The notes under the pieces were generated by a model that saw nothing but the letters and a program-made list of their open reading frames with translations, made no database searches and was not told the origin of the DNA. A stretch of DNA of 56,903 bases from a virus: positions 1 to 56,903 of IMG/VR virus record IMGVR_UViG_3300025141_008849; one strand, 5' to 3'. Made by a program: the position numbers and the translations under genes. Below are positions 3 through 47,528 of this stretch, in pieces; position 1 is the stretch's first letter; each line of letters opens with the position of its first letter.

Positions 3-479
3 GATGACTTTGTTATTAAAGGTGCTCCACCTGATATTCCAAAAACAGTAGGGCAAGCAGTACAAATGCGAGATTATGTACAAAAAACATTTAGAGATAG
101 AAACTTAGTAATGTGGCACGGTACAAGCGAAGCACGATGGGAAATAATACAAAATAAAGGGTTACATCCAGGTAAAACTGGCGAAGCATATGTTGATTTA
201 GTGCCAGGCTATTCAGAACATAATATATATCTTGCTACTACTCCTAAAGCGGCACAATATTATGCAAAACGGCAAGCAAAGAAAGACAATTCAAAAGGTA
301 TTGTTTTACAAGTACAAGTACCCAATCCAAATAAAATAGTAGCAGATGATCGATTTGCTCGTGCTTATGATGCCAAAGGAATGGGGCATGATACAAGGCA
401 AATCAAGTCTAGTGTTAGAGAACTAGGTGAAGTTGGTTACAAGGGTTGGATTCCTCCAAAATTCATATCTAAAAAATAA
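3..479 (+). CDS. ADP-ribosyltransferase-like protein, 5' truncated
   Basis: The frame is open to the window edge, so the N-terminus is missing; the Met at 66 is probably internal. The visible part has a PARP/KptA-like ART pattern: WHGTS with the NAD-binding His, a helix ending in NKGLHPG, then NIYLATTPKAAQYYA carrying the conserved Tyr and the following helix, and a late GWIPPKF segment. I could not assign the third catalytic residue (Glu or Gln). T4 packages ADP-ribosyltransferases (Alt) in its head and injects them. The next two genes carry capsid-targeting-like leaders, so a virion role is plausible here but is inference. The fold call is fairly firm and the substrate is unknown. Confidence 0.6.
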   Translation, partial: DDFVIKGAPPDIPKTVGQAVQMRDYVQKTFRDRNLVMWHGTSEARWEIIQNKGLHPGKTGEAYVDLVPGYSEHNIYLATTPKAAQYYAKRQAKKDNSKGIVLQVQVPNPNKIVADDRFARAYDAKGMGHDTRQIKSSVRELGEVGYKGWIPPKFISKK

Positions 480-508: not shown

Positions 509-3235
509 ATGAAATCGTCTGAGTTGTTAAATGAAGCAGTTACCGGAGATATAACGGTTGGCTTTGAATTAGAATGTATCGTTCCTATAGATTTCGAAGG
601 ACTGATGCACGATGATATCAATAGTCTAATAGCGGCTAACAATTATCAAGTAGGCGAAGATTCGAGTGTACAAAGCGATGGTACAGAAAACGAAGACGAT
701 ATAGGTATTGAAATAGACATTGGCTCTGTTCCTGGAAAATTTGGACAACAAAGACGAATTGTTGCTAGTCCTGGCGACTTTGCTCACGTAGCAAAATTTA
801 TTGCAGATATGTATGAAGCAGGTATGTATACAAATCATACTTGTGGTTTCCATGCACACTTTGGCTTAGGCGAATTGCGTAGTGCAGATTCATTGCGTAA
901 TTTTTGGTTTGCTTGTTACTTTATTAAAGAAGGCATGTTTAATCGTTATTCTCATTTTACAAATGATCCTAAAGAAATAGACTATAATCGAATAATACCA
1001 ACAATTAATGCAGACGGACAATATCAGTATCAAGAAAGAGCTGGTATTCCTCAATTTGAAGATCAAGAATATGCTAGTTTTCCTATGTACTTTGAAGCAG
1101 TTCAAGAATTTGAAAATTACATGGGACAGTTAAGTTCAAAAGAAGCAAAAATAGAATATGCAATGCAGGTTGCATCTAGCAAATATGGTACAGCAGGATT
1201 TGAAAAATATAATTTAATGAATGTACACGAACAAGGCACCCTCGAATGGCGTGGTTTACGTTTTGGTAATGAGAGAGACGGCAACAACTTTAGAAGAGAC
1301 CAAAAGCATATAATGGATTATTTAAAGTTTGTATATAAATTTACTACAGAACTTGCAAGATCACTTGATAGATTAATGACTTATAAAGTAGGTGGTGTTA
1401 CTTTACAAGAAGTGCAACGAGCATATCAACAAACTTCTCAAACACGTAAATCAGTTTCGGGTGCATTAATAACACAATTTAGAGATTTATTTAATTCATT
1501 TGGAATACCCAAAACAGTAGTTAAAGATGGTGTTACTGCACTGGCACGTAATATTCAAGTCAAACTTAGTTCAACAAAACAAAGTAATTTTGATGCAGAA
1601 AAAATTGCTCAACATATGAGTCATTTTGCATCATTATCATTACCTATATGGCAACAACTTGAATGCATGTCATGTAAATTAGATCCTAATATTATAACTG
1701 GTGTTAAACCAAAATTTGAATTAGAATTAAAAGATGGAAACTTTTCTGGAGCAAAATTTGATTTTAGAAATGTTAAAAACTGGCAGAAGTTATTGGCTTG
1801 GCATGGATTTAATTTTGTTGATTGTGTGTTTGAAAGTTGTGATTTCTTTTGGGATGCCCCTACTAAGTATGGTACATTTAATGGTCCTTATGGATTTGAT
1901 CAATGCACATTTATAGATTGTCATTGGGGATTTCCAGTTGGTTCTAAACCCGACCCAACGTGGCTAAAATTTATAAATGAAGAAGATATTGCATTAGATG
2001 AATGGGGAACAGGATTATCTAACAATGTTATGCCCGAATCTATAACTGAAGCAAATAGCATATTTGATAAAATGAAAGATGTAAACGTTACCTCATCGGA
2101 AACCTGGATGAGACAACAACAGAATGGTAGTCAGTGGTGGGCAGAGCAAGAAGATCCGGGGGCGTATTATGGTGAACAGAGAGAACATACACTTAAAACT
2201 GATAACGGAGAACGGAAAGATATAACCACAACACCAGAAATATGGAATGGTAAAGAGTGGACCAAACACATATCACCAAAACTTCAACAGGATTCAAATT
2301 ATAATACACACCAATGGTTGTCAGGTAGCAAAGATTTAATTGAACCAGACGACAGCGGAAATATCAAAATTGCTCCACTGCCCGGGGACGACGAACAAGA
2401 GGCACCTGAAAATAATAGTGATTGGGATGACGACGATCCGTTTGGTGGACGAGATGCTGATGACTTAATACATGATTTTGAAAATGACGAGGAAGAAAAA
2501 AATACACCCGAACCTGAGCCGGAACCTGAGCCTGAGCCGAAGCCAGAGCCGAAGCCAGAGCCGGAAGACGAAATAAAGCCATTGGATGTTAATCCTCCAA
2601 CGCATCCAAGTGTTGATTTGCCCGAACCTGAGGTAACTGCACCACAAGCACCAGAAATAGACGATATACCAGAACCAGAAAGTGAACCTTTAGTGCCACC
2701 AGTTAAGTTTGATCCAATAACGCCCGACGAATTAGAACCACCGCCTATTCCTGTGCCGTCGACACCTAAACCTAGTGTAACAACACCGTCAAATTTAAAA
2801 CCTAGTACAGGATCGAGTGTTCCACCAACGCCAGAACTTGGCAAATACGACGGAGGACCCAGCGTACCGGGTGGTAAAATTGCAGGACCTAAAGTACCAA
2901 GCACTGGTACAAAACCAGGTAAAATTGCAGGACCGGGCACTAGTACAGGACCAGGCACTAGTACAGGACCAGGCACTAGTACAGGACCGGGCACTAGTAC
3001 AGGACCAGGCACTAGTACAGGACCAGGCACTAGTACAGGACCAGGTAAAGGTAAAGGTAAAGGTAAAGGTAAAGGTACATTTCAAACTGATATAAACGAC
3101 GTAATTAAAAAACTAGAAAAATTACCAGTAGGAATAACAAAAGGAACAGATAGTGCTATCACTGGGGACGAGTGGGACAAAAGCCTGGCAAAGATGAAAG
3201 CAAGTAAAGCAAAAAGATTGGCGAATATGAAATGA
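509..3235 (+). CDS. Amidoligase-like protein with pentapeptide-like and repeat-rich tail; probable virion protein
   Basis: A 908-residue multidomain protein. Residues 1-9 (MKSSELLNE) resemble the T4 capsid-targeting leader cut by prohead protease after L-x-E. Residues 16-250 match the amidoligase (COOH-NH2 ligase, glutamine-synthetase-like) pattern: GFELE at 18-22, SDGTE near 56-60, GIEIDIGS at 66-73, TCGFHAHFG at 111-119 and a late TLEWRGL at 244-250. Residues 403-485 contain pentapeptide-like steps (FSGAKFDFRNV, FVDCVFESCDF, FDQCTFIDC). The rest is low complexity: acidic stretches, a Pro-Glu run near 667-690, six GTSTGP units near 810-845 and a Gly-Lys run. Amidoligases form amide bonds between amino groups and carboxylates of peptides or small molecules. 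The substrate here is unknown. It overlaps the next gene by 4 bases. Confidence 0.65.
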   Translation: MKSSELLNEAVTGDITVGFELECIVPIDFEGLMHDDINSLIAANNYQVGEDSSVQSDGTENEDDIGIEIDIGSVPGKFGQQRRIVASPGDFAHVAKFIADMYEAGMYTNHTCGFHAHFGLGELRSADSLRNFWFACYFIKEGMFNRYSHFTNDPKEIDYNRIIPTINADGQYQYQERAGIPQFEDQEYASFPMYFEAVQEFENYMGQLSSKEAKIEYAMQVASSKYGTAGFEKYNLMNVHEQGTLEWRGLRFGNERDGNNFRRDQKHIMDYLKFVYKFTTELARSLDRLMTYKVGGVTLQEVQRAYQQTSQTRKSVSGALITQFRDLFNSFGIPKTVVKDGVTALARNIQVKLSSTKQSNFDAEKIAQHMSHFASLSLPIWQQLECMSCKLDPNIITGVKPKFELELKDGNFSGAKFDFRNVKNWQKLLAWHGFNFVDCVFESCDFFWDAPTKYGTFNGPYGFDQCTFIDCHWGFPVGSKPDPTWLKFINEEDIALDEWGTGLSNNVMPESITEANSIFDKMKDVNVTSSETWMRQQQNGSQWWAEQEDPGAYYGEQREHTLKTDNGERKDITTTPEIWNGKEWTKHISPKLQQDSNYNTHQWLSGSKDLIEPDDSGNIKIAPLPGDDEQEAPENNSDWDDDDPFGGRDADDLIHDFENDEEEKNTPEPEPEPEPEPKPEPKPEPEDEIKPLDVNPPTHPSVDLPEPEVTAPQAPEIDDIPEPESEPLVPPVKFDPITPDELEPPPIPVPSTPKPSVTTPSNLKPSTGSSVPPTPELGKYDGGPSVPGGKIAGPKVPSTGTKPGKIAGPGTSTGPGTSTGPGTSTGPGTSTGPGTSTGPGTSTGPGKGKGKGKGKGTFQTDINDVIKKLEKLPVGITKGTDSAITGDEWDKSLAKMKASKAKRLANMK
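2936..3043 (+). repeat. Six tandem 18-bp units inside the amidoligase-like gene
   Basis: Six head-to-tail copies of an 18-bp unit, ggcactagtacaggacca, varying only at the last base. They encode GTSTGP repeats. Because 18 is a multiple of three, gain or loss of units changes protein length without breaking the frame. They sit inside a coding region and have no spacers, so this is not a CRISPR array. Confidence 0.95.
3044..3073 (+). repeat. Five tandem GGTAAA hexamers (Gly-Lys run)
   Basis: Directly follows the 18-bp repeat. Five perfect hexamers encode alternating Gly-Lys, giving a short basic flexible segment just before the C-terminal 50 residues. Confidence 0.95.
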
Positions 3236-5409
3236 GAGTTACTGAATTTTTAATAGAAAGTATAGTTGGCGATTTACGTAATAGTATTGTTCGTGGTTTA
3301 AAACCAGAATTTGGTCCTGGTAATAACACATACGAAGGTATTTTAAATGGGTTTGATCAAACTGCAAAATTTGCTAAAGATTCATTTACTAAAGACGCCG
3401 GCGGAATTGATAATTCAAAAGTTGTTTGGGCATTGCAATGGTATGTATTAGATACTAAAATGCATTACTTAGATAAAAGCCCAGCGACTGAGCAGTATAA
3501 CCTTTTTACAGATAAAGAAAAACAAAGAATTATGAATACTGCAAATAAAAAAGGTGTACGAATAGGCAGTCAACAAGTACGTAATATATGGCCAGGAGGC
3601 GGTCCTAGTGATTGGTTTATGGCATATGATCACTTTGCAGGTACACACGGTATTGCAAATAAAGTTCAAAATTTAGCATTTGATCCGGCTACAACTCCAC
3701 GAGACTTACATAATGAATTACAAAAAATAGAAACCGATTGGTTAGAAACACTTAAAGATGACAAACGAGCAATCCAACACGGTGGATCAATGACCGACAT
3801 GGATTCAGGTGAAGTGGGTGATTGGAAAGAACTTTACAATGTAATGATGGAATTTGAAGATGGTGGTTGTTGGTTCAACTTAAACAGATCGCATTGTGAA
3901 AAAGAAGGTGAGTCAATGGGTCATTGTGGTAATAAAGCCGACTTTGATGAAAACGAAACAATTTATAGTTACAGAACACCTTCAAAAGATAAAGACGGAT
4001 ACTGGATACCACACTTAACTTTTATATATAATAACATAACCGGACTGTTAGGTGAAATGAAAGGCTATGGTAATAAAAAACCTAGTGAAAAATATCACAA
4101 TGTAATTGAAGCATTAATAACTTCTCCTTGGGTTAAAGAAGGTATTAGAGGCGGAGGTTACTTACCTGAAGAAAACTTTAGTGTATGGGATTTAGATAAT
4201 GCAGAGGAACTAATTAAAAAGAAGCCGTTACTTGCTGGTGATAATTTAGACAAGTATATGTATGAAATTGGATTAGATAAAGGGTTTGAAAAACTAATTC
4301 AAGCACGTATAGGCGAAGATGCAGTTTTTGAAATACAAGATGACGTCTGGGCATCAAAGGCCAACACAGGACAATACCTATATAAAGTCGAAGTTAGACT
4401 AACAGAGAAATACAAAAACTTTGCCGAATTAATAAATGCAGAGTTCCACGATTCACCATACAATATGCTTTTAAAATACCATCACACTTCAGACTCAGTT
4501 CCGTGGAGTACAAGCGAAACAGCACACGATGTAGCCGCCGAAGACGAGCATTTAGAATCTGAACGTCTTGAACGTATTTTACAATATAGTCCGCCTGCTG
4601 TCAACAGAATTATAGTCGAGGAATTAGCACATTATAGTGGTGACGATCCAAGTAAAGTAGAAGAAAATATATGGGAATATTTACAAAACCATGGTGGTAA
4701 ATTTTCAGATTGGATTATAGATGCAACTCGTGAAGCGATTGTAAATGGATATGAAGAAGGATTTCATCATGAAATAAGAAATCAAGCAGTACATCATATT
4801 GAAAGTTTAAATAATAATTATTTTGGCTGGGGTGCTAAAGAATCACAATTAACAATACAGGCCGCAAAGCCAGGCCGTTGGGATTTAGATGATAACGAAT
4901 GTTTTGTAACGGCATTACTAATGGAATTGGTAGAAATTATTACAGACATGGAACGTGATGGTGAATATGTACCACGTGATTGGTGGTCAAATTATGCAGT
5001 AGAAAGTGACGACGAAGAAATATTTACTGCTGAAAATATATATGCAAATACTACTTGGGATTATATTAGAGCAATAAAAGATTTTAGCCAAAGCATGATG
5101 CACGCCCCGGACTTACATGATGGTGAAGCATTCCACGAAAAATATGATAGATTACGGCAAGGTGTGGGCGACCCGTTACATGACATGAGTGCTAAAAGGT
5201 TAGAATCAGCAGAAAACTGGAAACCAATACTAGACGAAGACGGCAATGATCAAATGATGCCGTTGATAAAAAAACTTAATAAAATTGTTAAAACTAAAAA
5301 GCAAAGTAAAAGCGATCATGATAATATGCATAGACTCGCACAATTAGCAGGATTAAATAATCCCGATAAAACAGTACATAAAGTACTTAAAAAAAGAGGA
5401 TATACTTGA
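3232..5409 (+). CDS. PcfJ-like protein with capsid-targeting-like leader
   Basis: A 725-residue protein. Its leader (MRVTEFLIESIVGDL) aligns residue by residue with that of the preceding gene (MKSSELLNEAVTGDI), giving a shared M-basic-x-S/T-E-L/F-L-x-E-A/S pattern with a predicted cut after Glu9. Residues 226-296 hold GESMGHCGN, then an YSYRTP strand, PHLTFIY and GEMKGYGNKKP, in the same order as the His-Cys and (Q/M)KG..N.(K)P motifs of PcfJ-like proteins. The C-terminal 400 residues are acidic and helical-looking and I do not recognise them. The ATGA overlap with the amidoligase-like gene implies coupled expression. The biochemical role of the domain is not established. Confidence 0.5.
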   Translation: MRVTEFLIESIVGDLRNSIVRGLKPEFGPGNNTYEGILNGFDQTAKFAKDSFTKDAGGIDNSKVVWALQWYVLDTKMHYLDKSPATEQYNLFTDKEKQRIMNTANKKGVRIGSQQVRNIWPGGGPSDWFMAYDHFAGTHGIANKVQNLAFDPATTPRDLHNELQKIETDWLETLKDDKRAIQHGGSMTDMDSGEVGDWKELYNVMMEFEDGGCWFNLNRSHCEKEGESMGHCGNKADFDENETIYSYRTPSKDKDGYWIPHLTFIYNNITGLLGEMKGYGNKKPSEKYHNVIEALITSPWVKEGIRGGGYLPEENFSVWDLDNAEELIKKKPLLAGDNLDKYMYEIGLDKGFEKLIQARIGEDAVFEIQDDVWASKANTGQYLYKVEVRLTEKYKNFAELINAEFHDSPYNMLLKYHHTSDSVPWSTSETAHDVAAEDEHLESERLERILQYSPPAVNRIIVEELAHYSGDDPSKVEENIWEYLQNHGGKFSDWIIDATREAIVNGYEEGFHHEIRNQAVHHIESLNNNYFGWGAKESQLTIQAAKPGRWDLDDNECFVTALLMELVEIITDMERDGEYVPRDWWSNYAVESDDEEIFTAENIYANTTWDYIRAIKDFSQSMMHAPDLHDGEAFHEKYDRLRQGVGDPLHDMSAKRLESAENWKPILDEDGNDQMMPLIKKLNKIVKTKKQSKSDHDNMHRLAQLAGLNNPDKTVHKVLKKRGYT

Positions 5410-5697: not shown

Positions 5698-6216
5698 ATG
5701 GCAACGTATAAAGAAGATGAAAGCGGCTGTCCATTCATTTATAGAGTGGGAGCAGTAACAAAAGTAGTAGATGGTGACACATTAGATTGTGTATTCGATT
5801 TAGGCTTTGATGTTATGGTAAAACATCGTGTAAGGATGCTTGGTATCGATACACCTGAGTCAAGAACACGAAACAAAAATGAAAAAGTATACGGCTTACT
5901 AAGTAAGGCCGCACTTAAATCATGGGTGCATTGGGCAGTTATGTCAGACAGAGATGACATTGACATTCAAATTAGATGTCCAGAAGCAGACAGCCGAGGT
6001 AAGTTCGGTAGAATTTTAGGCGAAGTTTGGGTAAACTGTAATGCAGAAGGTGAGTATGGCGGTTGGACTAATGTCAACAAATGGCTTTGTGAAAACGGAC
6101 ATGCAGTTGGCTATTGGGGGCAAAACAAAGATGATGTTATACCTGAACATAAGGCAAATAGAGAATTTTTAGCAGAGCACGGTAAACAAGAACTTTTACA
6201 ATGGGACGACAATTAA
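5698..6216 (+). CDS. Thermonuclease-like (SNase/TNase family) nuclease
   Basis: A 172-residue staphylococcal-nuclease-fold enzyme that should cut DNA or RNA with Ca2+. All expected residues are visible: VVDGDTLDC (Ca-binding Asp), RMLGIDTPES (the Arg35 and Glu43 equivalents) around residues 45-55, and GKFGRILGEV near 101-110 (Arg87 equivalent). No signal peptide is seen, so it acts in the cell or is packaged. AGGAG precedes the ATG with good spacing. A role in host DNA degradation or nucleotide scavenging would fit. Its end overlaps the next start by 16 bases. Confidence 0.88.
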   Translation: MATYKEDESGCPFIYRVGAVTKVVDGDTLDCVFDLGFDVMVKHRVRMLGIDTPESRTRNKNEKVYGLLSKAALKSWVHWAVMSDRDDIDIQIRCPEADSRGKFGRILGEVWVNCNAEGEYGGWTNVNKWLCENGHAVGYWGQNKDDVIPEHKANREFLAEHGKQELLQWDDN

Positions 6217-9500: not shown

Positions 9501-11077
9501 GATTATTTAGAACACGGTTAAATGAAGTGACTTTACGTTGGCCCGAAATAAGAAAGTATAAAGGAAAGTACCTTTGGAATTTATACGATAAAATTTCAAA
9601 AGGTGTGCCTATAGAACTTAACGATGGATCAGTAGTAACAATTGATCCTATGGCAATCCAAGCAATTAACAAAGAACTCTTCGGAGATATACATACTCCA
9701 ACTGGTGCCGAACTTAATCAATTTGTTAATAGTGACGGTCAACTTAAAAAGCCTGTTGATAAAAAAGATGGATTTATAAGAAGAGCAAAATTTAATGTTG
9801 AAGATACTGATGGTAATACACGTGAAATTGATTTACATGATATAGAAAAGAACAATGTAAAAACAGGTGTAAAATACAATAAAGGATATGCGGCAGAATT
9901 TATGATGGGAGTTGCTTCCGCCGCGACATTTATGTTTCAGGACGAAGATATTAACATAGATCATGCTAAAATAATAATGTCCGAAGCAACTATAGATTAC
10001 TCCGGCAATATTCCAGTATTAACTTATACAGATAAAATACAATATACAACTCCTAAAGGAAAACCAGATAACTTTACTCTTACTGTTTCAGTAGACAAAG
10101 CAACATTTAATAAAGTTGTTAAAGATTTTAAAGATGGGTTAATAACTGAAATACTCGAGGCATACTTCTTAGATTCAGTTACATATCTACGTGAAAATCA
10201 AAACTTTTTAGATGCTATGAACTATGCAAGAAACGATCCTAACACCAATAATATAGAAGCGTCTTCAATGGGTACAGGAGATCAAAAAGGAACTAAAGTA
10301 GATTTCCAATTATTTGTAGACGGAAAATCATTTAAAGGTATTAGTTTAAAAGCAAACTCAAAACGAATAGGACAAGTTGCTAGATCACAATCTAAAATTG
10401 ACAATGGAGAGTTCCAGGTAGACTTAGCACATTTTCTTAATGGACTATTTAAAGTTGATTTGTCATCAGAAATTAAAAAAGGACCTAAAGATAGATTTGA
10501 AATGCGAGATTATCTAAAGCAAATATTTGCTAAAGTTGCAGATCATATTAATAAAAATTCAACAAATGATAAAAGTGAATTTGAAATTTATAAAACAATA
10601 TATGCTGGTATTAAAGGGCAAGCAACAAAACACGAAGAAGGTGTTACCGTTGTTTCACTTGGGGGTAATTTAGCACAACCATCGTATATGATAATAAATT
10701 TTAATGAACAAATGGAAGAGTTATTTTCAAAATTACAATTTAGAGCATGGTCAGTACCAGAAGATAACAATAAACGCCCTGCTTTATTTTTAGTCGGATA
10801 TATAACTGATCCCGAATTACAAGAACGTTTAGGAACAGATAGACTAAAAATATTTTATGTAAGATCATATGTTAATGTTAGCGAAAAAGTATTAAGAGTA
10901 ATAGCCGAATTTCAAGACGGCTTAGGTGCATTAGCAAATATGATATATAAAGAAAATCAAATAAATACAGTTAACGAAACTACTAGTTCTGGAAGTATTG
11001 CCTCTGTTACGGGTGAATTGTTCACTCCTAAAGGCAAGAAAAAGAAAAAGACAAAAATGATAAGGCGCATAACATGA
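9497..11077 (+). CDS. Unknown 526-aa protein with a PD-(D/E)XK-like core
   Basis: The overall protein is not recognised. Residues 267-295 read KVDFQLFVDGKSFKGISLKAN followed by KRIGQV: an Asp, a strand, then S-L-K and a downstream Gln-Val, the spacing seen in restriction-endonuclease-like (PD-(D/E)XK) cores where Ser or Glu replaces the usual acid. Earlier, KYNKGYAAEFMMGVASA suggests a helix with a Glu. Near the N-terminus RTRLNE is an L-x-E site of the kind cut by T4-like prohead proteases. It stands between candidate virion genes. A nuclease function is a hypothesis. Confidence 0.4.
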   Translation: MRLFRTRLNEVTLRWPEIRKYKGKYLWNLYDKISKGVPIELNDGSVVTIDPMAIQAINKELFGDIHTPTGAELNQFVNSDGQLKKPVDKKDGFIRRAKFNVEDTDGNTREIDLHDIEKNNVKTGVKYNKGYAAEFMMGVASAATFMFQDEDINIDHAKIIMSEATIDYSGNIPVLTYTDKIQYTTPKGKPDNFTLTVSVDKATFNKVVKDFKDGLITEILEAYFLDSVTYLRENQNFLDAMNYARNDPNTNNIEASSMGTGDQKGTKVDFQLFVDGKSFKGISLKANSKRIGQVARSQSKIDNGEFQVDLAHFLNGLFKVDLSSEIKKGPKDRFEMRDYLKQIFAKVADHINKNSTNDKSEFEIYKTIYAGIKGQATKHEEGVTVVSLGGNLAQPSYMIINFNEQMEELFSKLQFRAWSVPEDNNKRPALFLVGYITDPELQERLGTDRLKIFYVRSYVNVSEKVLRVIAEFQDGLGALANMIYKENQINTVNETTSSGSIASVTGELFTPKGKKKKKTKMIRRIT

Positions 11078-11370
11078 CAAAAATGAACTTAGCAGAAGGT
11101 GTGTTAGATGCATCTGATGATGATGGATGGATGGCAAAGGAGCAGTTATATAAATCTGCAAAATATGCTATTGAACTCCATGCAATGATCACTGATAACC
11201 AAGATTTAGAACCTTGGATACAAGCAAAAATCACTGAAGCCGCGGATAGATTGAGTTCTGTAAAACATTATATGGAATATCTAAATGCAAGTGACACAAG
11301 CGGAATGATGGCTCAACCAGAAATGGAAGCACCAGTTCCAGCACCGATGGAATCTGCAACGAGAAAATAA
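11074..11370 (+). CDS. Small phage protein (98 aa), possible virion component
   Basis: A 98-residue protein overlapping its upstream neighbour by 4 bases and its downstream neighbour by 1 base. The N-terminus MTKMNLAEGVL has an L-x-E-G site like prohead-protease targets, the middle is helical (KSAKYAIELHAMI, QAKITEAADRLSS) and the tail is Pro-Ala-rich. I do not recognise a family, though small helical proteins like this are common in the structural regions of marine T4-like phages. Confidence 0.5.
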   Translation: MTKMNLAEGVLDASDDDGWMAKEQLYKSAKYAIELHAMITDNQDLEPWIQAKITEAADRLSSVKHYMEYLNASDTSGMMAQPEMEAPVPAPMESATRK

Positions 11371-38980: not shown

Positions 38981-40084
38981 ATGGCAGTAGCAATAGACAC
39001 AAGGACAGTAACACTGAAGCAAGCAGAGCAAATTGCTAAGAAGGCGTTTAGAATTAAACGTCCACTCATGCTTTGGGGTGCACCAGGAATTGGCAAATCC
39101 GATTTAGTTAGAATGCTAGGGGCACTTTTAAAACGAGATGTTGTAGACATTCGCTTACCACTTTGGGAACCTACCGATATTAAAGGTATGCCTTTTTACA
39201 ATGCCAAAACTGGCAAAATGGAATGGGCACCACCAGCAGAACTTCCAACCGATCCTAAGTCCACCGCAATAGTATTTTTAGATGAAGTTAACGGAGCGGC
39301 TCCGAGTGTACAGGCGGCGGCTTACCAGTTGATTTTGGACAGAAAAATTGGATCCTACAAGTTACCAGACAATGTACTTTTAATTGCGGCAGGGAACCGC
39401 GAAACTGATAAAGGGGTTACTTACCGAATGCCAAAGCCGTTGGCAAACCGTTTCATCCACTTGGAAATTAAGGTTGACTTTACTTGCTGGTTTGACTGGG
39501 CAGTAGAAAACCAAATTCACCCAGACGTTATTGGGTATTTGCAGTTCCAAAAGAAGGACTTGTATGATTTTAATCCGGCGGCTGATACTAAAGCATTTCC
39601 AACTCCACGTAGTTGGTCTTTTGTAAGTGAACTCATGTATGACAGTGATACTGAAAACGCCGAAGAGAGCGACAGGTCACTCGAAATGGACATGGTATCC
39701 GGTTGTGTTGGAGAAGGGGTTGCAACTAAGTTTCAAACTCACAGAAATCAAAAAGCTCACTTGCCACTTCCACAAGACATTTTGGATGGCAAGGTTAAGT
39801 CAGGTGCTAACATTGAAACTTCCGGACAGTATGCATTGACAACCGGTATGTGTTACGAACTTAAAGAGTCCTGCGAAACTGCACAGAAGGAAAAGAAAAT
39901 GGATGAGTGGCATGTAAAAGCAGGAAACTTTATCCAGTTTATGATGGACAACTTCAATACTGAGATGACTATATTTGGTGCAAGGATGGCACTTAAGAGT
40001 TACGGACTACCATTCGATCACAGGAAGTTGTCAAACTTTAAAGAATTTTTTGAACGGTTCGGTAAGTTAATTATCGAAGCGTAG
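38981..40084 (+). CDS. MoxR-type AAA+ ATPase
   Basis: A 367-residue AAA+ protein. Walker A GAPGIGKSDLVRML near residue 33, Walker B AIVFLDEVNGA near 98-108, sensor 1 LLIAAGNRETD near 137, and PMPKPLANRFIHLEI-type arginine-finger region after it. MoxR ATPases act as chaperones that remodel or load metal-dependent partners, usually a VWA protein encoded next door; here that partner is at 41274 with the same promoter and the same AAGGAGACAAAATGGCA start region. The target complex is unknown. Confidence 0.88.
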   Translation: MAVAIDTRTVTLKQAEQIAKKAFRIKRPLMLWGAPGIGKSDLVRMLGALLKRDVVDIRLPLWEPTDIKGMPFYNAKTGKMEWAPPAELPTDPKSTAIVFLDEVNGAAPSVQAAAYQLILDRKIGSYKLPDNVLLIAAGNRETDKGVTYRMPKPLANRFIHLEIKVDFTCWFDWAVENQIHPDVIGYLQFQKKDLYDFNPAADTKAFPTPRSWSFVSELMYDSDTENAEESDRSLEMDMVSGCVGEGVATKFQTHRNQKAHLPLPQDILDGKVKSGANIETSGQYALTTGMCYELKESCETAQKEKKMDEWHVKAGNFIQFMMDNFNTEMTIFGARMALKSYGLPFDHRKLSNFKEFFERFGKLIIEA

Positions 40085-40101
40085 CCGGGCGCCACTCCGG
40101 C
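40084..40101 (+). other. GC-rich hairpin after the MoxR gene
   Basis: GCCGG (40084-40088) pairs with CCGGC (40097-40101) around an 8-base loop, directly at the MoxR stop codon. Together with the following larger stem it forms a double hairpin. Confidence 0.5.
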
Positions 40102-40110
40102 TGTCTCCTG

Positions 40111-40140
40111 AGGAGGATGTACTTTGTGCATCCTCCTTTC
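40111..40140 (+). terminator. Candidate transcription terminator of the MoxR operon
   Basis: AGGAGGATG (40111-40119) pairs perfectly with CATCCTCCT (40129-40137) around a 9-base loop. Only a short TTTC follows, so it is a weak intrinsic terminator or a 3'-end stabilising hairpin. Confidence 0.55.
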
Positions 40141-40148
40141 ACTGTTTA

Positions 40149-40156
40149 TATAAATA
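40149..40156 (+). promoter_or_regulatory. Candidate T4-type late promoter (TATAAATA)
   Basis: A perfect T4 late -10 element (TATAAATA) after the candidate terminator and 6 bases before the ATG at 40163. The short distance would give an almost leaderless message. Confidence 0.35.
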
Positions 40157-40162
40157 AAAAGT

Positions 40163-40600
40163 ATGAAAATTTTAATATTTGGAATAAACAATACAGGCAA
40201 AACTACATTAGCAAGAGAACTAGCATATCATTTTATGGTGCCACATTATAATGCCGACACAATAAGAGAATATAATAATGATTGGGATTTTTCCGAAGAG
40301 GGAAGATTACGACAAGTTAATCGATATAAAAAAATTGAATATGGTATTTTAGATTTTATCTGTCCATTAGACATAACTAGAGACCAATTAGGTGTCGATT
40401 TTAAGATTTGGATGGATACAGCCAAAAAAGGTATCTATGAGGATACCAACCAAATGTTTCAACCCCCCACACAATATAACATAAGGATAACAACATGGAT
40501 TGGACAAGACCAACTACACAAATGCTTGGAAGATTTCAACCCTGGCATCAAGGGCATCAAGAGCTTTTTAAACGGGCCCTTTCAAAAACTGGTCAAGTAA
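40163..40600 (+). CDS. P-loop kinase, adenylylsulfate-kinase-like
   Basis: A 145-residue P-loop protein. ILIFGINNTGKTTLARELA near residues 3-21 is a Walker A helix, NADTIREYNNDWDFSEEGRLRQVNR has the D-x-x-R, DFS and GR spacing of APS kinases, and CPLDITRD lies at the next strand. APS kinases (about 170-200 residues) phosphorylate adenylylsulfate. The C-terminal 35 residues overlap the next gene in another frame and look unconserved, so the enzyme may be short. Possible sulfate activation for the sulfotransferase-like genes is a guess. Confidence 0.6.
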   Translation: MKILIFGINNTGKTTLARELAYHFMVPHYNADTIREYNNDWDFSEEGRLRQVNRYKKIEYGILDFICPLDITRDQLGVDFKIWMDTAKKGIYEDTNQMFQPPTQYNIRITTWIGQDQLHKCLEDFNPGIKGIKSFLNGPFQKLVK

Positions 40601-40842
40601 TAATTATGTTACGAGAGCAAGATGGCACAGATAGCAACCCTTTTACAGTAGCACAACGGATTGGTTATATTAAAGAGGCGTTAGCAGAATACGAAGGTAA
40701 ATTTGAAGTAATGGCAGTACCTAATATTATGCATATTACATATGGTAGAGGTGTTGGGTATAAAATTGAAGAGGAATTTTTGGATAAAGAGACCGAAGCA
40801 ATTTCAGCAACAAATATCCGAAAACAAATGAATGTGGAATAA
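40495..40842 (+). CDS. Cytidylyltransferase-like nucleotidyltransferase (HxGH)
   Basis: A 115-residue protein of the nucleotidyltransferase HIGH superfamily. MLGRFQPWHQGHQELFKRAL near residue 10 is the P-loop-like HxGH motif, and TEAISATNIRKQM is the ISSTxIR end motif, both binding ATP or CTP. GRFQPxHxGH resembles nicotinamide-nucleotide adenylyltransferases of NadM/NadR type. AAGGA precedes the ATG. It begins inside the kinase gene, with a 106-base overlap; together they could make an activated nucleotide (NAD or CDP-linked). Confidence 0.75.
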   Translation: MDWTRPTTQMLGRFQPWHQGHQELFKRALSKTGQVIIMLREQDGTDSNPFTVAQRIGYIKEALAEYEGKFEVMAVPNIMHITYGRGVGYKIEEEFLDKETEAISATNIRKQMNVE

Positions 40843-41203
40843 AGAAGATAAAACATACAGAAAACAATGGATAAGTGCAACAAGAAAAGATAAATGGGGA
40901 AGATGTAGAAATACCATTTATCGCATTTATGGTAAGGAAAGATGCAAACACATATGGGGAGATAATTTACCAACTCCAAGCGAGATCCAAGAATATAAAA
41001 AAGATTGGGTCACTAAGGCCTGGAAAGCCAATCAATATGTTAAATGCACACCGGATGCAAATACAATAAAGGTTACAAAATGGCTTAAAAATTACGGGAT
41101 AAATAAGTTAGATTACGATAATGTATTCAAAGATACAATAGTTGTAAGAGATCCCCAAGTATTTGTAATGCTTAAACTGTATTTTTCTGAACAAACAGGT
41201 TGA
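40832..41203 (+). CDS. Basic protein of unknown function (123 aa)
   Basis: A 123-residue Lys/Trp-rich basic protein (WNKEDKTYRKQWISATRKDKW, RCRNTIYRIYGKERCKHIWG). It overlaps the nucleotidyltransferase by 11 bases and ends in the promoter of the VWA gene. It may bind nucleic acid by charge, but no family was recognised. A shorter frame inside it on the same strand is a shadow. Confidence 0.5.
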   Translation: MWNKEDKTYRKQWISATRKDKWGRCRNTIYRIYGKERCKHIWGDNLPTPSEIQEYKKDWVTKAWKANQYVKCTPDANTIKVTKWLKNYGINKLDYDNVFKDTIVVRDPQVFVMLKLYFSEQTG

Positions 41204-41228
41204 CCTTTTCTACCATAGATAGTATAAT
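41200..41228 (+). promoter_or_regulatory. Promoter GGTTGACCTTTT-type, copy 3 (TTGACC-17-TATAAT)
   Basis: TTGACC at 41200-41205 and TATAAT at 41223-41228. The -35 block and the GATAGTATAATAGTTGTA block are identical to copy 1. The start point near 41235 rules out the ATG at that position for the downstream gene. Confidence 0.88.
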
Positions 41229-41273
41229 AGTTGTATGATGAATAAGAAATTAGAACTAATTTCAGGAGACAAA

Positions 41274-42635
41274 ATGGCAATATTGAATACAACATTAGCA
41301 CCGAACAAAACAGTTCCAGGAAGTTACGAAGTAGACGGAACAGTACCAAGTCAAAAGTTTGGTTGGGAAGATAAGCCACTTAAAAATGGCGGGAAACCGG
41401 CTTTAGAAAGACTTACAATGGCTCGTGTTAGGTTGCTCCTTAACAAGCCATTTTTTGGTAATTTGGTTACTAGATTAAAATTGGAAGAAGCCAAATGGTG
41501 TCCAACCGCAGGAACTGATGGACGTAAATTTTATTACAATGCAGATTTTGTTGATCGCTTAGACGACAACGAAGTACTTTTCCTTTGTGGACACGAAGTA
41601 TTACATTGTGTATATGACCACTTTGGAGCCAGAGCTGATTATGATTATGACCACCAACTTTACAATGCCGCAGGTGATTATGTAATAAACATACAACTCA
41701 CCGAAGATGGATTTACTCCTATTACCACTGTTAAAATTTTACTTGATTGGAAATACCAAGGACTTACTTCACATGAAGTGTACGAGCAATTAAAAGAAAA
41801 ATTTAAGTGTAGGGAACCACAAAACGGAGAGCTTGATACATTAGATGATCACATGGGACCAGGAAGCGGATTTGGTGAAGGTGAAGACGGTAAAGAAGAG
41901 GGAGGATTTGCAACAGGGGACAAGGAAGGTGAAGAAGGTGGAGGACAAGGACAAGGATCAGGTAAGCCGGGTCCACTTACAGACCAAGAGAAACAACAGA
42001 TTAAGGACGAACTTAAAGAGGCAATTATAAGTGCCGCAGACAATGCCGGAGCAGGTAACTGCCCAGCAGGCATTGAACGAATGATTAAAGAATGGACAGA
42101 ACCAAAAATGAATTGGAGAGATCTAATTCGTTGTCAAATTGAAAGTTCTATTAAAAGTGATTATACATTTATGAGACCTTCTAGAAAATCACAACAAACT
42201 AATGCAATTATACCAGGCATGAATAACGGTGAGTTGCTTGAAGTTGATTTAGCAATTGACTTGAGTGGGTCTATTTCACATGAACAACAACGAGACTTCT
42301 TTAGTGAAATAAAAGGAATTATGGAACAGTACTTGGATTTTAGAATTCGAGTATGGTGCTTCGATACAGAAGTTTATAACATGCAAGAATTTACTCAAGA
42401 TAACTTGGATGATTTTATGAACTACGAAGCAATAGGCGGTGGCGGAACCGAGTTCATGTGTAATTGGGAATACATGAAAGAAAACGACATTTGCCCAGAA
42501 CAATTTGTAATGTTTACAGATGGTTATCCATGTGGGGCCTGGGGAGATCCAGATTACTGCGATACGGTTTTTATTATTCATGATAATCAAAGAGCAGAAG
42601 CACCATTTGGAATCACTGCACATTACGAGGAATAA
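41274..42635 (+). CDS. VWA-domain metallopeptidase-like partner of MoxR
   Basis: Start set at ATG 41274, because AGGAGACAAA precedes it and the in-frame ATG at 41235 lies at the predicted transcription start. The 453-residue product has an N-terminal DUF2201-type metallopeptidase-like domain with CGHEVLHCVYDHFG near residue 107 (HEXXH zinc helix), a Gly/Glu-rich linker (GSGFGEGEDGKEEGGFATG), and a C-terminal von Willebrand A domain with VDLAIDLSGSIS (MIDAS DxSxS) near 325, GGGGTEF near 389 and FTDG near 414. Such MoxR/VWA pairs remodel or deliver metal to protein targets. Confidence 0.88.
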   Translation: MAILNTTLAPNKTVPGSYEVDGTVPSQKFGWEDKPLKNGGKPALERLTMARVRLLLNKPFFGNLVTRLKLEEAKWCPTAGTDGRKFYYNADFVDRLDDNEVLFLCGHEVLHCVYDHFGARADYDYDHQLYNAAGDYVINIQLTEDGFTPITTVKILLDWKYQGLTSHEVYEQLKEKFKCREPQNGELDTLDDHMGPGSGFGEGEDGKEEGGFATGDKEGEEGGGQGQGSGKPGPLTDQEKQQIKDELKEAIISAADNAGAGNCPAGIERMIKEWTEPKMNWRDLIRCQIESSIKSDYTFMRPSRKSQQTNAIIPGMNNGELLEVDLAIDLSGSISHEQQRDFFSEIKGIMEQYLDFRIRVWCFDTEVYNMQEFTQDNLDDFMNYEAIGGGGTEFMCNWEYMKENDICPEQFVMFTDGYPCGAWGDPDYCDTVFIIHDNQRAEAPFGITAHYEE

Positions 42636-42657
42636 GTATAATAAAATAAAAGGAAAT

Positions 42658-42912
42658 ATGGCAGGACTACACGTAGATGATATTAACTTAATAAAACAAG
42701 TTATAGAAATTGCAAGCACCAGAGGTGCTTTTCAAGCAGGCGAATTAAAAGCAGTTGGTGAGGTGTATGATAAAGTAACTGCATTCTTGGCCGAGATAGA
42801 AGACAATCAAAAAAAGGCTGATGAAGCTCAACAAGGAGCACCAGACACACCTCCAGAAGAACAACCCCCAACCGAACCAGTTGAGGTTGTAGAAGACACT
42901 AACCCTAGTTAA
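42658..42912 (+). CDS. Conserved-looking phage protein (84 aa)
   Basis: Start set at ATG 42658, after AAAGGA; longer in-frame starts lie inside the VWA gene. The 84-residue product MAGLHVDDINLIKQVIEIA continues into a helix (LKAVGEVYDKVTAFLAEIEDN) and a Pro/Glu-rich tail. Its type is common in T4-like marine phages. A TATAAT at 42637 lacks a good -35 box. Confidence 0.65.
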   Translation: MAGLHVDDINLIKQVIEIASTRGAFQAGELKAVGEVYDKVTAFLAEIEDNQKKADEAQQGAPDTPPEEQPPTEPVEVVEDTNPS

Positions 42913-42924
42913 AAAGAGGCTAAC

Positions 42925-43539
42925 ATGGCTAAATTTTTAAAACACGTCGGGCGTATTGCAAATACGGACCGTCGTTGTGTCGTTGCATTTAGGGAATTAC
43001 CAGACAATCCAACAGAGTGTTTAGTTATAGACACCGATGCATTACCAGATCGTTTTCATGATGGTGTAATGCAGGCAGTTGAAAATTCCACGGCACAAGA
43101 AACAGTAGAATTTTATAAGTATCTTGAACGTAATTCATTTATTGATGGTTCAAATATGCTTACCGCATTACACAATAAAGGATGGTTAGTAAAACAACCA
43201 ACCAACAATGTTATAATGCTACCGGCGCCAGAACAAACAATTAAACTAGCAGAGTTAAATGAACAACTCCGAAGTCTAGGTTTTGATGTTTATACTAGTG
43301 ACGACAAGGCTCCTAAAAAGGAACCGGCAAAAGCAATAGTAGATAGTATTACTCCTAACATTCCTTTGCCAGGTCAAGAGAAAGTCGGTGAAGTATTACA
43401 AAACGAAGATCTTGCAAAAAACTTCCTACAACAAGCAGAAACAATGATGAAGGAAGTTGAAAATCTTAAGGAACAGGCATATGAGATGGATCCTTCTTTA
43501 AAGCCTAAGAAAGGCAGATCAAAGAAGGCTAATGCTTAG
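42925..43539 (+). CDS. Conserved-looking phage protein (204 aa)
   Basis: A 204-residue protein preceded by AGAGG. The first half (KHVGRIANTDRRCVVAFREL, LVIDTDALPDRFHDGVM) is well ordered, as in proteins commonly found in marine T4-like phages; the C-terminal third is a Lys/Glu-rich coiled stretch ending KPKKGRSKKANA. Function not known to me; the region between the VWA gene and ThyX could be a nucleotide-metabolism cluster. Confidence 0.6.
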   Translation: MAKFLKHVGRIANTDRRCVVAFRELPDNPTECLVIDTDALPDRFHDGVMQAVENSTAQETVEFYKYLERNSFIDGSNMLTALHNKGWLVKQPTNNVIMLPAPEQTIKLAELNEQLRSLGFDVYTSDDKAPKKEPAKAIVDSITPNIPLPGQEKVGEVLQNEDLAKNFLQQAETMMKEVENLKEQAYEMDPSLKPKKGRSKKANA

Positions 43540-43844
43540 TGATTACTAAAAGACACCGCGATATTGATCGGATTATCATTAATAAAGCAAATCAAGTATT
43601 GCCCCCATTGCAGTATATTCGTGTGATTAAGATATCATTAAATGATGGTAGTAAGAGGGTTATATACCCAAAAGACTTTAATTGCAAGAGTACTGTTGAA
43701 TTCTTCGAAAGAGAAGAAGTAAGACAATTCCAAAGTAATACTAAAGAAGTAGAAGTTATATTGGATATGAAAAAATTCAAGAATGACTTACAATCAACAA
43801 ATACCACAATTTGGCAAGATGAAGAAAAAACAACAACAGATTAA
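43539..43844 (+). CDS. Small protein of unknown function (GTG start)
   Basis: A 101-residue protein with a GTG start overlapping the previous stop (TAGTG). It begins ITKRHRDIDRIIINKANQV and continues KISLNDGSKRVIYPKDF, a basic strand-rich core. Its 3' end overlaps the thyX start by 26 bases. No family recognised. Confidence 0.55.
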   Translation: MITKRHRDIDRIIINKANQVLPPLQYIRVIKISLNDGSKRVIYPKDFNCKSTVEFFEREEVRQFQSNTKEVEVILDMKKFKNDLQSTNTTIWQDEEKTTTD

Positions 43845-44712
43845 TGTTTTAGACCACGGCTTTGTACGCCTTATAGATGTTATGGGGACAGACGATTCTG
43901 TTGTTCAAGCCGCTCGTGTTAGTTATGGTGATGGTACTAAAACTGTAAATACAGATAGAAACCTAATACGTTATTTAATGCGTCATGAACACACTACTCC
44001 TTTTGAAATGTGCGAAGTTAAATTCCACATTAAATTGCCCATATTCGTTATGCGACAACTTATACGTCATCGTACTGCCAGTGTTAACGAGTATAGTGGT
44101 AGATACTCTATTATGAGTAATGAATTTTATATTCCAGAAACATTCGAATCACAAAGTAAAGTTAATAACCAAGGACGGGGCAAACCGTTAGACGATATCC
44201 AAGGCAAATTGCATTGGGATTTCAAAACAAGTTCAAAACTAGCATATGAAAAATATGAAGAACTCTTAGAACACGACTTAGCAAGAGAACTAGCAAGGGC
44301 GGTTCTTCCGGTTTCTAATTACACAGAAGCATATTGGAAATGCAATGTGAAAAACTTTTTACATATGATTCGTCTTCGAGCAGATAGTCATGCACAATGG
44401 GAGATACAAGAATATGCTAATGCAATGTATAAGTTAGTTAAACCCAAGTTTCCTGTTATTTGTGAAGCATATGAAGATTACCAGCAAGAGGCAGTTAAAT
44501 TATCTAGAGGAGAGGCCGAACTTACTAAAGCAATTTTCGGCAACTATATGGATGAATGGGATGACTATATAACTGACTGGTATGAGCAACCAGATATATC
44601 AGAGGAAAGTGTTAAAGAAGCAGAAAAATTATTGTGTAAAGAATTTGGCCTCTCAAAACGAGAGCTTACGGAGTTTAAAAATAAGTGGGAATCAGTGACA
44701 ACAATAAATTAA
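43819..44712 (+). CDS. thyX: Flavin-dependent thymidylate synthase
   Basis: Start chosen at ATG 43819 (MKKKQQQINVLDHGF); a longer in-frame ATG at 43783 lies inside the upstream gene. The 297-residue product has the ThyX signature RHRTASVNEYSGRYS near residue 83-97 that binds FAD and dUMP, VMRQLIRHR just before it, and AREILARAV-type ARAVLPVSNYTEAYWKCNVKNF later. It makes dTMP from dUMP with methylene-tetrahydrofolate and NADPH for phage DNA synthesis. Phage ThyX genes are common in marine lineages. Confidence 0.95.
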   Translation: MKKKQQQINVLDHGFVRLIDVMGTDDSVVQAARVSYGDGTKTVNTDRNLIRYLMRHEHTTPFEMCEVKFHIKLPIFVMRQLIRHRTASVNEYSGRYSIMSNEFYIPETFESQSKVNNQGRGKPLDDIQGKLHWDFKTSSKLAYEKYEELLEHDLARELARAVLPVSNYTEAYWKCNVKNFLHMIRLRADSHAQWEIQEYANAMYKLVKPKFPVICEAYEDYQQEAVKLSRGEAELTKAIFGNYMDEWDDYITDWYEQPDISEESVKEAEKLLCKEFGLSKRELTEFKNKWESVTTIN

Positions 44713-45428
44713 AAATATTCCATGTTATTAATCATATCGCAATAATACCCGCATTATTATACGGCCAGTTGTCTTACTGGCTAATTGCTTACCTAGTTTG
44801 GGGAGTTATAGCATCAATAGGTGTTAGCACAGGTCTCCATCGTTTATTATGCCATCAATCATTTAAATGTCCTTTGTGGTTTGAACAACTAGCAACCTAT
44901 GTCAGTTGTTTATCTACTGCTGGCAGTCCTCTTGGATGGGTAGGTGTGCATAGACTTCATCATATATACGTAGATCGAACAGGCGACCCACATGGTCCTA
45001 TGCAAATAGGTTTTTTAAATGCATATGTACATAACTGGGGCGATGTACAAATAGAACGTAAATACATTAAAGACTTATTAAAAAAGCCACATGTAATGTT
45101 TTGCCATAAAATGTGGTGGATAATTATATTATTATATGTCATACTATTGTTATTATTTTTTGGTTCACTAGGTGTTATATTTGGATATTGTGTACCGGGA
45201 GTAATGGCATTTCATGGAATGGGTTGGGTTAATGCAGTCGGGCATTCCTGGGGTTATCGTAATTATAAAACTAGAGATAAAAGTTATAATAATCCTATAA
45301 CAAATATTTTAACATTCGGTGAAGGCTGGCATAACAATCATCATCACGATCCTAATAACTGGCGTTTAGGTAAAAAATGGTGGGAATGGGATCCTACATC
45401 ATGGATAATAAGATTGGTTAAATTATGA
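44685..45428 (+). CDS. Membrane fatty-acyl desaturase
   Basis: A 247-residue integral membrane desaturase with a GTG start overlapping thyX by 28 bases. All three iron-binding His boxes are present in order: HRLLCHQ near 52 (HxxxxH), HRLHHIYVDRTGD near 89 (HxxHH), and EGWHNNHHHDP near 214 (HNxHH). Membrane segments flank them (IAIIPALLYGQLSYWLIAY, IIILLYVILLLLFFG). It is like stearoyl-type delta-9 desaturases, introducing a double bond into acyl chains. In a phage it might alter membrane fluidity or supply a lipid side chain for the downstream biosynthetic genes. Confidence 0.9.
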   Translation: MGISDNNKLKIFHVINHIAIIPALLYGQLSYWLIAYLVWGVIASIGVSTGLHRLLCHQSFKCPLWFEQLATYVSCLSTAGSPLGWVGVHRLHHIYVDRTGDPHGPMQIGFLNAYVHNWGDVQIERKYIKDLLKKPHVMFCHKMWWIIILLYVILLLLFFGSLGVIFGYCVPGVMAFHGMGWVNAVGHSWGYRNYKTRDKSYNNPITNILTFGEGWHNNHHHDPNNWRLGKKWWEWDPTSWIIRLVKL

Positions 45429-46162
45429 GACAAAACGAAAAAGGAAATCCTATAAATGCAACTAAAAGAGCCCGTGTTAGAGGTAACAGAGGGCCGCGAC
45501 GCCATCAAGTAAAGCGTTTGGTTGAAATATTTGATGTACCAAATAATGTTATTGAGGATATAAAAACAGTAAGTAGAGACCATGCAATAGATCATTTAGG
45601 TACTGAAGATTATCAAGTTAGTAAGTATTGCGATTTAACAGATACATTTCATAGACTAAAAAAAACAATAGGAAAACAATGGCCGTATAATGTTAATGAT
45701 GACCTATTTGACAAATCAACTACTAATTATAAACAAGTTCTTTTACAGAAATGTAATATATACGATAATCCATTAGAAGAAGTAGAGGAAACAAATTATT
45801 TTAATTGGGATATTGAGAAGCCTATTAATAATATAAAAACATGGCTAGAAGATAATTTTGCAAATGTCTATAGATCTCGCATTGCAATTTGCCCTCCAGA
45901 ACATTACTTGGAATGGCATATTGATACTGATACAAGTGCTATTGGCCGAATACAAATATGTGCTGAACATGGCGATGCTAAAATTGAATGGAAAACAAAA
46001 CAAGGCGTTGAGCAATATAAAATGGAAAACAATAAATGTTACTTTTTTAATACAGGATGGCCACATAGAATTATAAATGGACCCGCTCAACGAACTGTTT
46101 TACTTGCTGGTGTATATATAGATGAAATGTCCGATGATTTAAAACAGAAGATTTTAATATGA
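45425..46162 (+). CDS. 2OG-Fe(II)/aspartyl-hydroxylase-like oxygenase
   Basis: A 245-residue protein with an N-terminal basic tail (NATKRARVRGNRGPRRHQVK) and a C-terminal double-stranded beta-helix: LEWHIDTDTSAIGRIQICAE gives the HxD iron site, and FFNTGWPHRIINGPAQRTVLL gives the distal His and the 2-oxoglutarate-binding Arg. This is the layout of the aspartyl beta-hydroxylase/PKHD group. It overlaps the desaturase by 4 bases and the next gene by 4 bases. Substrate unknown; it is the first of several oxygenase-like genes. Confidence 0.65.
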   Translation: MRQNEKGNPINATKRARVRGNRGPRRHQVKRLVEIFDVPNNVIEDIKTVSRDHAIDHLGTEDYQVSKYCDLTDTFHRLKKTIGKQWPYNVNDDLFDKSTTNYKQVLLQKCNIYDNPLEEVEETNYFNWDIEKPINNIKTWLEDNFANVYRSRIAICPPEHYLEWHIDTDTSAIGRIQICAEHGDAKIEWKTKQGVEQYKMENNKCYFFNTGWPHRIINGPAQRTVLLAGVYIDEMSDDLKQKILI

Positions 46163-47019: not shown

Positions 47020-47528
47020 TGAATAAATTTTTAACACACATAGAATTATCTTTTAATAAAGAACTGATTTTGAAAGAAATGGAGACAATAACTTTTGACA
47101 CTAGGATGTTTGGAGATGACTTCCCGCGAGGACTTATTACTAACCCTCTCACACCTTCAGAGATGCGACTTCAAGAAATGGATAACACACCAGAGATCAA
47201 AAGATTATATATCCAATTAAAAACTTTAACAAAAAGTAATGATATTCGCCCTAGATTTTATAGGCAATTAGCAAATAAAGAATTACTATTCCATCAAGAT
47301 AAAGGTACTTTGTGTGCTATTAACATAGTATTATCAGAAGAATATGGGCCAATTATTTTTGAAGGCGTTGATGAAATATATTATAAATGTGCTCTTATTA
47401 ATACACAACCAAGACATGGAGTTAAAGCACATCCCGAGGAAAGAATTATTTTAAAGTATAGCATTTTTGATAAAAGTTACGAAGAAGTTTATGACACAGT
47501 AAGCATTTTGGAAACTCATGATAGATAA
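47016..47528 (+). CDS. Small 2OG-oxygenase/cupin-like protein (170 aa)
   Basis: A 170-residue protein. KELLFHQDKGTLCAINIVL carries an HxD-like site near residue 92, GPIIFEGVDEIYYKCALIN is a strand pair, and PRHGVKAHPEERIILKYSIFD carries a His followed by an Arg, the arrangement of small DSBH hydroxylases. MFGDDFPRGLITN near the start may be substrate-binding. The function is inferred from the HxD-to-His-to-Arg pattern alone. It overlaps the next gene by 11 bases. Confidence 0.5.
   Translation: MMNKFLTHIELSFNKELILKEMETITFDTRMFGDDFPRGLITNPLTPSEMRLQEMDNTPEIKRLYIQLKTLTKSNDIRPRFYRQLANKELLFHQDKGTLCAINIVLSEEYGPIIFEGVDEIYYKCALINTQPRHGVKAHPEERIILKYSIFDKSYEEVYDTVSILETHDR

Follow-up and report, generated by a model that had tools for sequence, protein, structure and literature searches.

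Two genes with T4-type leaders

The window, by which we mean the whole 56.9-kb stretch of DNA analysed here, is a genome fragment from a jumbo phage of the T4 supergroup. Its DNA polymerase is nearest to that of Sinorhizobium phage Phosso (50%), followed by that of Agrobacterium phage Atu_ph07 (47%). Near one end, two open reading frames on the plus strand, of 908 and 725 amino acids, overlap by the sequence ATGA; both lie precisely where a sequence-only reading of this DNA had placed them. The features of the region are as follows, with a slash marking a predicted cut.

3–479, plus strand: C-terminal part of an ART/PARP-like protein, truncated by the window edge (Pfam PARP E = 1.7e-4 and ART-PolyVal E = 0.036, both under the gathering cut-off; phrog_11974 E = 3.7e-6)
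509–3235, plus strand: leader-bearing amidoligase of the GS/gamma-glutamylcysteine synthetase superfamily; catalytic part at about residues 15–400, followed by a repeat-rich C-terminal extension
509–535, plus strand: proposed capsid-targeting propeptide MKSSELLNE of the [LI]xE sequence pattern, predicted cut after Glu9
2041–3235, plus strand: C-terminal extension of the amidoligase, residues about 512–908; relatives stop at 494–505 amino acids
3232–5409, plus strand: leader-bearing PcfJ-like protein (MGHCGN family), with 117 relatives in viral contigs and homologous to gp31 of Salicola phage SCTP-2
3232–3258, plus strand: proposed capsid-targeting propeptide MRVTEFLIE, predicted cut after Glu9, LxE conserved in homologues
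3835–4125, plus strand: PcfJ-like domain, residues about 202–298 (EGESMGHCGN, ETIYSYR, PHLTFI, EMKGYGNKKPSEKYH), defined by a profile match to the jumbo-contig protein L237
9497–11077, plus strand: protein with leader MRLFRTRLNE/V; L007 and L010 encode homologues (about 25% identity) whose starts likewise show KLNE/A
11074–11370, plus strand: 98-amino-acid protein with a possible leader, MTKMNLAE/G; its body is a module also present in other leader proteins (tblastn)

The N-termini of the two overlapping genes, MKSSELLNE/A and MRVTEFLIE/S, have the same layout as MKTYQEFIAE/A, the leader of IPII and IPIII that we took from the T4 genome as a control. Each has a lysine or arginine at position 2 and an L-x-E that ends at residue 9, and the first 15 residues align without gaps, with M1, E5, L7, E9, G13 and D14 identical. 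Relatives do not keep the GD past the predicted cut and read AIASEI or AVAGEI in amidoligases and SIVDDL in PcfJ-like proteins, so the likeness beyond E9 is probably a coincidence. The aligned N-termini, the position of E9 and the T4 control sequence bear out the earlier claim that both genes share a leader of the T4 type. By contrast, the claim that the gene upstream of them is ART-like finds a weak match in Pfam PARP, under the gathering cut-off, and the N-terminus of that protein lies outside the window.

A predicted GS-type amidoligase behind a conserved leader

We assign the product of the first gene to the GS-type amidoligases, and the earlier amidoligase-like label holds on its motifs and on the best match of its structure model. 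A single-sequence search of viral contigs returned no relatives and a PHROGs search no match, and the score against Amidoligase_2 (PF12224; E = 0.0017, 18.7 bits) lies under the gathering cut-off of 22. In the GS–GCS superfamily, the ExE, HxH and ExR motifs bind metal and ATP and have a catalytic role. All three motif classes are present in this family, as GFELE, CGFHxHF and TLEWRGLR, and an alignment (A2) of four window-clade amidoligases shows VGFELE, CGFHxHFGLG and QGTLEWRGLR to be invariant, as are E5, E9 and A10 of the leader. The structure model, which is of moderate confidence (pLDDT 63.9) and disordered over residues 1–14, matched glutamine synthetases best in Foldseek (E = 0.02, probability 0.90, low TM-scores), with GCS and Dop further down. 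The extension, which relatives lack, carries EPEP (EPEPEP) and GTSTGP repeats and starts at a possible second protease site, SITE514/A.

Atu_ph07 also encodes a leader-bearing amidoligase, gp196, which matches PF12224 over the cut-off (E = 5e-7, 30.2 bits). A profile comparison between the window-clade amidoligases and gp196 aligned just the 14-residue GFE(L/F)E strand (12.7%), so it is Pfam, the motifs and the fold search that place them in one group. Searches of 33 phage records with PF12224 gave 14 places in 10 records; as 10 of 33 records matched, missing matches in the others may reflect low sensitivity. A long open frame and a readable start were present at thirteen of these places, of which 11 were distinct. 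All 11 distinct jumbo-phage amidoligases carry an [LI]xE leader by residue 16 (p = 8e-8), examples being MRYHDIITE/L, MRYHEIINE/I, MRWQDISSKKLTE/L, LITE/K, LYE/G and LFE/G. The leader was absent at the start of a Porphyromonas phage amidoligase, as it was from the amidoligase of an uncultured phage of 635 kb. A 606-amino-acid amidoligase-like protein of SCTP-2, which was found via its leader and has no Pfam match, was excluded from these statistics.

A PcfJ-like family with an invariant LxE glutamate

For the second gene, too, a single-sequence search of viral contigs found no relatives and a PHROGs search no match. Alignment with SCTP-2 gp31 (MRLNNLFE/S) opened the family to its 117 relatives. 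Among 27 aligned proteins, drawn from members with a visible leader and 20–46% identical to the window protein, the LxE glutamate (E9 in the window) is invariant and the leucine two residues before it (L7) nearly so, whereas the stretch before LxE varies from 6 to about 30 residues. In an unselected comparison, LxE[SAGNK] occurs in the first 36 amino acids of 43 of 52 nonredundant standalone homologues, as against 15.9% of neighbouring genes (p = 3.5e-26); the control motifs ExL, LxD and LxK showed no or bare enrichment at the same starts. Homologues of at least 800 amino acids carry LxE[SAGNK] in 1 of 11 cases.

The earlier PcfJ-like label stands on a profile match and not on the PcfJ HMM itself. 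The PF14284 HMM gave no matches in 27 family members, and the central domain, whose core reads EGESMGHCGN ... PHLTFI ... EMKGYGNKKP, matches no Pfam HMM. By contrast, hhalign aligned the family (alignment A3) with L237, a PcfJ-domain protein from a jumbo contig, at a probability of 95.3% (E = 2.2e-8); the L237 region matches PF14284 at 30.4 bits, over the Pfam cut-off, and L237 itself has a leader-like start, MNLDELTKLNE/S. On this profile evidence the domain is a distant PcfJ relative. It resembles PcfJ over the HCG...SLR...PHLTF...KGxxNxxP core, although the window protein is much larger and largely helical. Its AlphaFold model (pLDDT 78.6, with low confidence over the first residues) found no match in a fold search of the PDB.

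Two arrangements of this family were seen in other contigs. In L007 (9917–12142), the PcfJ-like leader and the segment that follows it are tandemly duplicated; copy one has LLNK, and the cleavage glutamate (LLNE) is kept in copy two only. In L023 (3860–12787), a 332-kb contig in which S77 was not detected, the PcfJ-like domain lies inside a leaderless protein of 2,975 amino acids.

Leader excess across jumbo phage genomes

To count leaders we used a strict pattern, M[KR] followed by [LI]xE with the glutamate at or before residue 12, and took as expectation a composition-preserving shuffle of each gene's N-terminus. The window has 4 strict leaders against 0.9 expected (p about 0.013), which by itself is modest evidence. 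On these window counts the two N-termini could be alike by chance; however, the leader is conserved in distant homologues of both proteins and related jumbo phages show a genome-wide excess, and we regard a chance resemblance as very improbable. In the window's closest relatives (L006, L007 and L010), 17 of 61 genes have a strict leader against 1.3 expected (p = 8e-14). SCTP-2 has 35 against 5.4 (p = 2e-17) and Atu_ph07 29 against 6.8 (p = 2e-10), although tandem paralogues raise the counts in these two phages. Across these three cases the excess is 4–13 times the shuffled expectation. T4 has 4 strict leaders against 2.5 expected, and the whole record of Phosso (PV764938) has 8 against 4.5, with no excess. 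As the strict counts exceed the shuffles in those genomes and not in Phosso, the leader pattern is, as far as N-terminal sequences go, a genome-wide trait of some jumbo phages and absent as such in others.

The strict pattern misses IPI and Alt of T4 and therefore undercounts leaders. Genes outside annotated regions were our own calls and include some false open reading frames. A loose count of [LI]xE over whole genomes gave no decisive signal, whereas the strict, composition-shuffled pattern did.

Varied proteins carry the leader

In the closest relatives, a run of leader proteins surrounds the same two genes. By tblastn, the 98-amino-acid protein of the window at 11074–11370 is 75% identical to part of a 703-amino-acid leader protein of L010 and 52% identical to a 307-amino-acid leader protein of L006; this module also has weak cyanophage matches. 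The window frame that starts at 11370 has LYE at residue 33 and is a weak leader candidate. A staphylococcal-nuclease-like protein without a leader (5698–6216) lies in the same gene run as the leader proteins, and shares 81–93% identity with the corresponding proteins of L006, L007 and L010, with neighbouring proteins at about 25–46%.

In metagenome-assembled genomes, cellular homologues were found on 5 contigs only.

In Atu_ph07 the leader lies on a tandem array of genes.

L005 (Atu_ph07) 39484–49507: gp53–gp62, ten tandem leader proteins that start with M[KR]W.QL.E or MKWNDLNE

All ten have a YRGM or YRGI motif, from which we read them as ART-like; none has an ART Pfam match. In the first, gp53, a Zeta-toxin kinase domain follows (E = 1.5e-14). 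Leaders of gp53–gp62 and gp196 include MRWEQLTE, MKWQQLTE and starts ending in KLTE. The sequence-only reading had proposed a search of other genomes for the same leader on different enzymes; relatives carry this kind of leader on amidoligases, ART-like proteins and an ART–Zeta kinase.

According to the published proteome, Atu_ph07 virion proteins come mostly from CDS 31–76, 170–215 and 284–329, and mass spectrometry identified 29 virion proteins from CDS 31–76 (PMC6102473). We found leaders in 15 of 48 genes of the CDS 31–76 region as against 16 of 785 elsewhere (p = 4e-12), and the enrichment persists with tandem paralogues collapsed (5 of 38, p = 0.002). The amidoligase gp196 belongs to the CDS 170–215 cluster, where the gene for the portal is two genes away. 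From this gene context, Atu_ph07 leader proteins are likely to be present in virions. The analogy with T4 Alt drawn by the sequence-only reading gains indirect support from the leader-bearing ART-like proteins in a virion-protein cluster; its other leg, the ART assignment of the gene upstream of the amidoligase, is weak.

Prohead protease and capsid sites in relatives

The sequence-only reading proposed finding the prohead protease gene. Neither this gene nor a capsid gene lies within the 57-kb window, so for the window phage the protease and capsid step is drawn from its relatives. An S77 (gp21-type) prohead protease was present in all seven contigs of more than 300 kb first tested and in further contigs, including large ones that carry leader genes, as well as in SCTP-2, in Atu_ph07 as gp204, and in Phosso; it was not found in the window's closest relatives, all of which are fragments. 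The Gp23 capsid protein was found in 15 of 15 records tested. At the position of the T4 gp23 cleavage site, LTE65/A, the capsid proteins of 12 of 14 related jumbo phages have LxE/[NSAT]A[ST], as in LxE/NASAGAT, LxE/SATTGAT and LxE/AASSGAT. Phosso has S77 and a gp23 with the capsid site LME/T, yet no leader excess, so the protease does not imply a leader system.

The residue that follows the leader glutamate is S, N, K, D or A and is like that found where capsid proteins in the same genomes have their processing sites. This bears on an alternative in which the pattern marks an amphipathic helix for tail or baseplate assembly or for membrane contact and holds no protease site. Short basic-amphipathic starts are common, and T4 proteins outside the head also fit the pattern. 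An amphipathic helix alone fits poorly, however, with a glutamate that stays invariant behind a stretch of changing length and sequence, with enrichment of LxE but hardly of the control motifs, and with capsid-like residues past the glutamate; we consider it improbable, if less so than chance resemblance.

One L006 protein (9514–10437) has, past the leader MKLKDLQE/, the sequence TASAGATGAGNIA, which resembles the starts of mature capsid proteins of jumbo phages (NASAGATATGNIA). phrog_17311 weakly matches this capsid-like stretch.

A proposed route into the head and the host

We consider it probable that the N-termini in the window are T4-type capsid-targeting propeptides that load enzymes into the head for injection, a reading based on sequence comparison. 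The leader M[KR]...[LI]xE would carry a protein into the prohead core of a gp23/gp21-type jumbo phage, and the S77 gp21-type protease would cut after the LxE glutamate. The mature enzyme would remain in the head and pass into the host alongside the DNA, in the manner of Alt and the internal proteins of T4. In the window, the first cargo would be a GS/GCS-superfamily amidoligase, a predicted amide-bond former whose targets would most likely be host proteins, peptides or small metabolites. The second would be the PcfJ-like protein. Both would belong to a larger and variable leader-bearing set, which in relatives would include ART-like proteins, an ART–Zeta-kinase fusion and others. The leader, its invariant glutamate, S77, the capsid site and the leader excess in related genomes back the earlier proposal of an injected, host-modifying set as far as targeting; cleavage, packaging, injection and substrates are what we infer for these enzymes.

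The leader might instead target the prohead while the proteins serve as core or scaffold assembly factors that are degraded or left behind and not injected. In T4, gp21 also cleaves two core proteins, gp67 and gp68, as well as the scaffold gp22 (PMC5694885), and LxE is slightly above expectation in the PcfJ-like family (279 versus 223). However, LxE is over-represented in gp22 (16 versus 5.6 expected), unlike in the window enzymes, where it occurs at expectation (7 versus 7.0 and 8 versus 8.4) as in Alt (6 versus 7.4), which makes a core or scaffold role less likely. Catalytic motifs are moreover conserved in the amidoligases, and the cargo changes between phages while the leader stays. We think such a role unlikely, although less so than an amphipathic helix, and favour injected enzymes. 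As internal LxE sites are present in the window enzymes at about the level of chance, folding would have to shield them, as in Alt.

A broader version is tentative, and we hold it to be possible rather than probable. T4-supergroup jumbo phages may have a large, fast-changing set of injected, head-packaged enzymes under one cleavable LxE leader, including a GS-type ligase that would conjugate or cap proteins or peptides of the host as infection begins. The 908-amino-acid form in the window could be recut at ITE514/A, freeing a C-terminal protein.

Relation to known systems and significance

T4 internal proteins and Alt use the same kind of leader system (PMC3012670, PMC5694885). The T4 capsid targeting sequence of IPI–III and Alt shares with the present case a short propeptide at the N-terminus, in which [LI]xE falls at about residues 6–19, a gp21-type protease, a gp23-type capsid and varied cargo that has only the leader in common. 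It differs in that the cargo here, predicted from sequence, is an amidoligase and a PcfJ-like protein, joined in relatives by tandem ART-like proteins and an ART–Zeta kinase, and a genome can hold as many as tens of leader proteins. In giant phages of the phiKZ/SPN3US group, too, the prohead protease cuts after glutamate and proteins are packaged and ejected (PMC5694885, PMC10052503), but those propeptides are mostly longer than 100 residues and have AxE or SxE motifs, whereas the leaders here have 8–30 residues and LxE. Head-packaged ARTs have been proposed from gene context in many phages (PMC9503650), and injected multidomain proteins are already known (PMC5512222). Polyvalent proteins are similar in their host-modifying domains, predicted to be head-packaged and injected (PMC5512222, PMC9503650), but here most are separate proteins with a leader, and long PcfJ-like relatives (at least 800 amino acids) are usually leaderless. 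The window amidoligase is like Amidoligase_2 and GS–GCS proteins in its GFELE, CGFHxH and TLEWR motifs and in the glutamine synthetases found by the fold search, and unlike them in falling under the Pfam cut-off and in having a head-targeting leader. In the openly searchable literature we found no description of a T4-type leader common to varied jumbo-phage enzymes, of an amidoligase among them, or of amide-bond formation by injected phage proteins. Packaging by such a leader is an established mechanism; what looks new is the cargo and how widely it ranges.

If this reading is correct, virion chains should start one residue past the LxE glutamate, and the result would suggest natural leaders with which large phage heads could be loaded with proteins. 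The leader would be a sequence tag that lists injected jumbo-phage proteins straight from genomes; in Atu_ph07, 102 of 131 virion proteins have no assigned function (PMC6102473). The idea embodied by T4 Alt, a single ADP-ribosyltransferase, would then widen to enzymes of various kinds, including one for amide-bond formation.
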